From an uncultured Coriobacteriaceae bacterium (lineage in GTDB: Bacteria > Actinomycetota > Coriobacteriia > Coriobacteriales > Coriobacteriaceae): DNA of 64,000 nucleotides. Shown in pieces: positions 13,518-44,516 of this stretch. The position numbers and the translations under genes are program-made. Position 1 is the stretch's first letter. Each line of letters starts with the position of its first letter. A model generated the notes under the pieces. It searched no databases. It was not told the DNA's origin and saw only the letters and a program-made list of their open reading frames with translations. The DNA lies in NCBI GenBank assembly GCA_944322305.1, contig CALUOP010000004.1:62001-126000 (forward strand), written 5' to 3'.

Positions 13518-13632
13518 GGGCGCCTTCGGCGGCAATGCTCCGCCGAGTTCTGAGCCCGCCTTTTCGCAGGGCGTAAGCCCGCGAAAAGACTGCGGGCGAT
13601 CACGAGGCGGAGCCTTGCCGCCGAAGGCGCCC
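13518..13632. repeat. Long intergenic palindrome C (115 nt, 27-nt arms)
   Basis: The left arm 13518-13544 and right arm 13606-13632 are complementary over 27 nt with one mismatch; the outer 18 nt (GGGCGCCTTCGGCGGCAA and its complement) are perfect. The centre holds nested stems: GCCCGC/GCGGGC, TTTTCGC/GCGAAAA and GGGC-GTAA-GCCC. Arm length, overall size and the inner motif TTCTGAGCCCGCCTTT match the family A elements near 40.7 and 44.3 kb, though the arm sequence is unrelated. No T-tract follows directly. The remaining gap (13379-13517 and 13633-13765) shows no gene. Confidence 0.85.
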
Positions 13633-40700: not shown

Positions 40701-40813
40701 GGACCCTTTCGCTTTTGCTTCAGCGTGCTCCTCGCTCGCTTCTCTTGCGCGCCGCTTTCGCGGCGCTTAGAGGCTCGCTCAGAAGTCACGCCGAAGCAAA
40801 AGCGAAAGGGTTC
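40701..40813 (-). repeat. Palindrome A1 (family A, first doublet, subtype a)
   Basis: 113 nt. Arms 40701-40727 and 40787-40813 are complementary over 27 nt with two mismatches. The arm reads GAACCCTTTCGCTTTTG in its own orientation. A central 7-bp stem GCGCCGC-TTTC-GCGGCGC lies at 40749-40766. Between arm and central stem lie the conserved strands TGAGCGAGCCTCTAAGC and GCGCAAGAGAA. Orientation is minus by the core sequence. Confidence 0.92.
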
Positions 40814-40845
40814 TTGCGTTGAGTGTTGCTCTTCAAGGCTGATCA

Positions 40846-40958
40846 GATCCCTCGGCCTTTAGTCATGGGATGTCTTTTGAGCGAGCCTCTATGCGGCACG
40901 CAGTGCCGCGCAAGAGAAAGCGAGCGAGGAGCATCCCGGGGTTAAAGGCCGAGGGATC
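40846..40958 (+). repeat. Palindrome A2 (family A, first doublet, subtype b)
   Basis: 113 nt. The outer 16 nt (GATCCCTCGGCCTTTA, 40846-40861) pair perfectly with 40943-40958; GGGATG/CATCCC closes the 27-nt arm. The central stem GCGGCAC-GCA-GTGCCGC is at 40893-40909. It is in inverted orientation to A1 across a 32-nt spacer. It lies upstream of the tRNA-Pro promoter. Confidence 0.92.
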
Positions 40959-40998
40959 GCGCCGCAAAGATTGATCAGAATTCGTTGTAATTTTTCGC

Positions 40999-44232: not shown

Positions 44233-44252
44233 GATTGTCTTCTTTGTAACGC

Positions 44253-44365
44253 GATCCCTTGCCCTTTACCGTCGGGATGCTCTTCGCTCACTTCTTTTTG
44301 CGCGGCACTGCGTGCCGCTTAAAGGTTCGCTCAAAAGACATCCCTACGGTAAAGGGCAAGGGATC
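44253..44365 (-). repeat. Palindrome A3 (family A, second doublet, subtype b)
   Basis: 113 nt. Arms 44253-44279 and 44339-44365 pair over 27 nt with one mismatch; the arm begins GATCCCTTGCCCTTTA. The central stem GCGGCAC-TGC-GTGCCGC is at 44302-44318. The core matches A2 closely but in reverse orientation. Confidence 0.92.
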
Positions 44366-44402
44366 TGGGAAGCTGGCACAAGAAGCTTTTCAACAACGCA
44401 CG

Positions 44403-44516
44403 GGCCCCCTTCGTCTTTGTCTCGGCGTGACTTCTGAGCGAGCCTTTAAGCGCCGCACAAGCGGCGCGCAAGAGAATGCGAGCGGGGAGCACGCCGAGAC
44501 AAAGACGAAGGGGGCC
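44403..44516 (+). repeat. Palindrome A4 (family A, second doublet, subtype a)
   Basis: 114 nt. The 27-nt arms 44403-44429 and 44490-44516 are perfectly complementary (start GGCCCCCTTCGTCTTTG). The central stem GCGCCGC-ACAA-GCGGCGC is at 44450-44467. The core matches A1. The rest of the gap to trxB (44517-44692) is AT-richer and has a weak interrupted inverted repeat GTTATGG/CCATAAC at 44538-44599, but no gene. Confidence 0.93.

Follow-up and report, generated by a model that had tools for sequence, protein, structure and literature searches.

A probable REP-like family of extragenic hairpin repeats, with a conserved core and copy-specific complementary arms, in the Coriobacteriaceae

The window, a 64,000-nt stretch of DNA from an uncultured Coriobacteriaceae bacterium, carries two close pairs of long hairpins, one of them beside coaBC, and a single related hairpin elsewhere (Table 1). 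The paired hairpins are each 113 or 114 nt long and fall into two subtypes, a (A1 and A4; centre GCGCCGC-N4-GCGGCGC, arm end CGGCGTG) and b (A2 and A3; centre GCGGCAC-N3-GTGCCGC, arm end GGGATG). At 40.7 kb subtype a precedes b, and at 44253-44516 b precedes a. A preliminary description of the locus regarded the doublet as one composite element present twice in opposite orientation, and this is borne out by a BLAST alignment in which the two doublets are 79% identical over ~280 columns spanning both hairpins, the TGCGTTG spacer and ~12 nt (GCG...CAAAGA) beyond the b hairpin, as well as by a repeat search of the window that returned a 127-nt inverted repeat (40844-40970 / 44241-44367, 82%). The positions, geometry, subtypes and b-a order of A3 and A4 were likewise found as first described. 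At its arm start, A2 (window 40836-40850) has 14 bases, GGCTGATCAGATCC, identical to those of a copy on contig C1 (L041); the rest of the arms of these two copies is unrelated.

Table 1. Hairpins and associated features in the window
Feature	Position	Strand	Remarks
Single family member	13518-13632	+	Between a 359-codon gene and the following proS-like gene; core like A1-A4, 27-bp arms unrelated to A1-A4
Hairpin A1, subtype a	40701-40813	core on -	Begins 15 nt past the coaBC stop codon (40685)
A1/A2 spacer	40814-40845	none	
Hairpin A2, subtype b	40846-40958	core on +	
Outer 12 nt of composite beside A2	40959-40970	none	GCGCCGCAAAGA
Outer 12 nt beside A3	44241-44252	none	Common with 40959-40970; belongs to the duplicated composite
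Hairpin A3, subtype b	44253-44365 (113 nt)	core on -	27-bp arms around conserved core
A3/A4 spacer	44366-44402	none	TGCGTTG present when read reversed
Hairpin A4, subtype a	44403-44516 (114 nt)	core on +	27-bp arms, 27/27 pairs Watson-Crick

Across the family the repeat occurs mostly singly, just downstream of stop codons, and the doublet is one of its arrangements. Each unit is built from a polar, conserved core of ~60 nt, one strand of which carries purine-rich internal mismatches, and from copy-specific arms that surround it. Exact-core searches recovered two further copies, with unrelated arms, in the genome to which the window belongs; a covariance model of the core (R1) and its refinement (R2) find 11 copies there at E<=0.01 and 13 at E<=0.05. 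Unit length in this genome is 113-116 nt and the arms of the ten clearest copies measure 25-27 bp, those in other genera mostly about 13-19 bp. Nearly every model match is flanked by long complementary arms, when the core model itself demands only ~7 bp. The 359-codon gene beside the single copy in the window is, by inspection, ispG. A weak hit at window position 1053 (20 bits), the one hit lying wholly within a predicted gene, was treated as chance; a weak match inside a merR-like gene (L170:286) was treated in the same way.

The distribution of the family is centred on one taxonomic family. About 90 copies were found in the related genomes examined, including all three congeners (G001, G002, G003), and, of the six genera that make up the taxonomic family, five have copies, with none in the single genome of the sixth. 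An order-wide scan matched 41 of 199 genomes, chiefly from the same taxonomic family. With a strict A-type core pattern the copies of the window's own genome are the sole real elements across the taxonomic family, and the covariance model is needed for the others. Among the matches listed when the genomes of 84,980 species were scanned with the core pattern (at least 117 stretches), none outside the own-genome copies has pairing arms; core-pattern scans of viral contigs gave no match, nor did a plasmid collection match the core. An Rfam scan of the window at gathering score reported tRNAs only, leaving the hairpins unmatched. The literature searched yielded no account of repeats of this kind from these bacteria, which is weak evidence of novelty; the family adds a palindromic repeat that lacks the usual link to a transposase and is apparently undescribed in this group. 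A GC-rich palindromic repeat unrelated to the family, TTGGGTGAGGGGT...ACCCCTCACCCAGCT, which also contains GAGCGAGCCTTTGGCTCGC, was seen in three near-identical copies in three Sphingomonas genomes (L066, L128, L138).

The predicted folds are extreme in their stability. As DNA, the hairpins have z-scores of -9.3 to -10.3, with none of 200 shuffles as stable. As RNA, each of the four copies folds better on the strand bearing GAGCGAGC...GCGAGCGA than on the opposite one (-79.2 against -70.7, -70.0 against -58.8, -71.9 against -67.4 and -88.2 against -78.7 kcal/mol), and on that strand, by direct reading, tandem G.A mismatches can form within the core. In A3 a compensated change from a G-C to an A-T pair sits between these tandem mismatches. 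Because the core mismatches are conserved, the core itself is probably selected, most plausibly for recognition.

Among the predicted pairs of A1-A4, 20 of 47 are changed on both sides with pairing kept. Comparison of A1 with A4 and of A2 with A3 (52 arm pairs) gives 11 two-sided changes, nine of them Watson-Crick in both copies, against three one-sided ones. Covariation over 92 distinct cores scores 0.607, and shuffled data 0.197, in an alignment fitted to the structure and thereby favouring the score, and it falls to 0.125 or less when partners are slid by 1-3 columns in the same alignment. Across 20 copies of this genus, left arms share 35% identity; an arm pairs at 91% with its own partner and at 35% with the partner of another copy. 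The preliminary claim that arm differences are compensated thus holds, as neither a majority of pairing-breaking differences nor a lack of covariation above background was found. It proposed two causes, selection on pairing or a copying process that rewrites both arms. Of these, block replacement of a whole hairpin or inner module is seen directly at one site in a sister genus; selection on pairing and replication template switching are not separated by these data. Either selection or template switching inside the hairpin may keep the arms paired, and the latter has been reported both to form stems and to preserve them (PMC8794818).

That site adjoins a gene identified by inspection as uspA, where 19 close genomes carry one of two hairpin alleles, X or Y. 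About eight pairs distinguish the alleles, changed on both sides and without intermediates, and scattered one-sided changes occur within each type. In the 1.3-kb flanks, X and Y genomes reach an identity of 98.4% (G012-X against G023-Y), and a tree of the flanks interleaves the two types, making the alleles polyphyletic relative to their surroundings. The inner 75 nt of Y match, at 98.7% identity, a hairpin from a different locus that X and Y genomes both possess, there with other outer arms. From this match, together with the occurrence of X and Y in near-identical flanks, it follows that replacement is modular, affecting a hairpin or its inner part as a block. The exchange itself may reflect ectopic conversion, or ordinary recombination between species rather than mobility. 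A further case of sharing is provided by two unrelated sites in one genome (G025, L246 and L248), where the entire hairpin is common, arms included, with the same outer boundaries, AACGCAGG...CCGGTCA. In four genomes (G009, G015, G029, G031; L338-L341) the uspA site is without a hairpin and the match to the end of the neighbouring gene lies ~1.7 kb further off, so the region there has been replaced or carries an insertion.

Both doublet sites of the window are without a hairpin in the three congeners, so the presence of the composite is lineage-specific; the flanks of the empty sites are too diverged to align, and no exact insertion junctions or target duplications were caught there. Such empty sites bear on the proposal that a core module inserts into pre-existing dyads or terminator stems, the arms being the host's own dyad. 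Targets of the YPAL repeats span or adjoin dyad symmetry (PMC2229807), and the present family has locus-specific outer arms around a common core and copies placed where terminators lie. In addition, a simple dyad at the uspA site of another genome (G043) resembles the outer arms found elsewhere. Against this, arm length in this genus is nearly constant at 25-27 bp, longer than in ordinary terminators, and the arms of A1-A4 have no clear resemblance to the empty coaBC site of G001, where 38, 59, 56 and 10 of 300 shuffles were as good for A1, A4, A2 and A3, respectively. Insertion into resident dyads is quite improbable. The G043 dyad (L345), whose arms are CAGGAAGCCC/GGGCTTCC, is a short hairpin that looks like a terminator and has no core; it may be a remnant or a precursor of a family hairpin.

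The placement of the copies, determined with a simple codon-usage gene finder, is in most cases just past a stop codon and in fixed orientation. In 65 of 97 copies the core ends 12-48 nt from the stop codon of an antisense gene, and a lesser number of copies are found immediately before a start codon; one copy, on contig C8, sits between divergent genes. Position past stop codons, and the frequency of a TGCGTTT motif 3' of the hairpin in the transcript sense, would suit intrinsic transcription terminators of the clade. The hairpins are, however, without a T-tract (T fraction 0.40, 0.38, 0.29 and 0.22 in the first four 3' positions), canonical terminators stand separately from the hairpin near degV and uspA, and neither the copies before start codons nor the C8 copy fits this function, which is highly unlikely. 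Integron attC sites were considered for their position and strand polarity; the copies here adjoin dispersed core genes and are not arrayed.

A different account of the same placement is that of a vertically inherited 3'-UTR RNA hairpin that stabilises or processes mRNA, its arms free to diverge yet kept complementary by selection on RNA pairing and its core bound by a protein. The fixed orientation just past stop codons and the strong core covariation are as expected for such an element, and so are the neighbouring genes, which include groEL, pta, a class II aldolase gene, rpsJ (S10), a rubrerythrin gene, gdhA (glutamate dehydrogenase) and ilvN; many of these can be presumed, from their identity, to be highly expressed. 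Several sites are common to more than one species or genus, among them leuA-leuC, argJ-argB, ilvN and ispG-proS. Five genomes, representing three genera (G065, G042, G064, G054, G066), have hairpins in the leuA-leuC gap, followed by leuC and differing in their arms. This sharing of the leuA-leuC, argJ-argB and ilvN sites would also fit a long-kept regulatory RNA and was counted against a mobile, REP-like reading. The RNA account is opposed by paralogous modules common to separate loci, by the lineage specificity of both window doublets and by copies at degV that lie beyond a canonical terminator. Nor are G.U intermediates clearly enriched on the transcript strand: wobble counts in the core orientation are 37 G.T against 24 A.C (p = 0.12), reversed on the mRNA strand. 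Purely vertical inheritance of an RNA element is unlikely. In the argJ-argB gap, the window's genome and a congener have one hairpin each (L175, G000:C10; L193, G001:C4), in opposite orientations relative to the operon, which may be due to loss of different pair partners or to inversion between arms.

All eight close pairs of opposite orientation are head-to-head (A1/A2, A3/A4, L187, L236, L249, L224/L255, L256, L272), and one further pair is tandem; the eight are not all independent, as three represent the leuA-leuC site and two the window composite. REP dimers typically have this head-to-head form (PMC3733652), and 55 of the 67 genomes from the taxonomic family encode Y1_Tnp proteins, the window's own genome having one such gene, as would be expected if the hairpin were the REP of a resident RAYT (Y1/TnpA-REP) transposase. 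Yet none of 20 Y1_Tnp loci examined has a family hairpin adjoining the gene; R2 finds one clear family hairpin across all these stretches, ~4 kb from a RAYT gene, and palindromes of other kinds, GGTTGGGGACGTG... among them, flank several of the loci. Inspection by eye of the ends of the own-genome copies and of L246/L248 revealed no terminal GTAG/CGTC tag. With the tests of RAYT adjacency, terminal tag and size all failed, the assignment was rejected as very improbable, and the moving enzyme is probably not the resident RAYT. The own-genome Y1/RAYT-like transposase gene (G000:C4:265091-265420, L287) has its own palindrome, GGGTTCGTTGGGGACGTGCTCCATCTGACCC..., and such palindromes flank several RAYT genes across the taxonomic family.

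The explanation that best accommodates these observations, and one that is reasonably probable, is a family of palindromic, extragenic DNA repeats of REP/BIME-like type that are moved and exchanged as modules, the doublet being a composite copy. Units would spread and swap between loci as DNA, and arms would stay complementary through the replacement of whole hairpins or inner modules at once, as seen at one locus. Leftover mismatches may be repaired by template switching within the hairpin, purged by selection, or both. In the window, a head-to-head pair would have been inserted in this lineage and then copied again, inverted, 3.3 kb away. Once transcribed in a 3' untranslated region, the hairpin probably alters transcript stability or 3'-end processing. 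For small arm differences the balance leans to copying over selection, because selection should act only weakly on one mismatch among 27 bp of stem and the wobble counts show no clear wobble route. Units three to four times longer than classical REPs, and at most 11-13 of them per genome, were counted against the REP-like reading. A RAYT-independent mobile hairpin is a rather improbable form of mobility; here a core or inner module would move via an intermediate that is single-stranded or snaps back, each arm would serve as template for its partner, and every landing or repair event would thus write new complementary arms of fixed length.

Compensatory base changes are the standard proof of a selected RNA structure, and in this family complementary arms are replaced as blocks. 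Because of this, and because alternative alleles at one site lie in near-identical flanks and modules are common between loci, these hairpins offer a natural test of how much covariation arises from copying and how much from selection.

Comparison with known systems places the family near several types of repeat. Like REP, BIME and REPIN sequences (PMC3733652, PMC2817692, PMC3116915), its members are extragenic palindromes made of polar units, with several subfamilies per lineage, mainly head-to-head dimers, spacers mostly of 20-100 nt, and stems that vary yet stay palindromic. REP dimers are themselves predominantly head-to-head, CGTC REPs have no dedicated transposase (PMC3733652), and REPs flanking RAYT genes change yet stay palindromic (PMC3733652, PMC2817692). 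Unlike those repeats, which are 20-40 nt long and present in more than 100 copies, the units here are about 90-116 nt long, number about 11-13, enclose a conserved core in long variable arms, and have neither a GTAG/CGTC tag nor RAYT adjacency.

ERIC and YPAL are repeats whose sequence is conserved as a whole. By their descriptions they are set apart from the present family, in which arms are unrelated between copies and the core is kept. The family is nonetheless similar to YPAL/RU-2 and ERIC/RU-1 in being composed of imperfect intergenic palindromes of more than 100 nt with filled and empty sites (PMC2229807). YPAL has filled and empty sites and dyad targets, and both types of repeat are reported to be co-transcribed with their neighbours and to show either filled and empty sites or effects that depend on orientation (PMC2229807). 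The mitochondrial mobile hairpin elements DHE and RHE (PMC2800124) are dispersed and hairpin-forming as well, a resemblance by description only; they are organellar and are not known to share sequence with the present family. Finally, the hairpins maintained by template switching (PMC8794818) reflect a mutational process, unlike the element family described here, in which such a process may play a part; the two are alike in multi-base compensatory changes without G.U intermediates.
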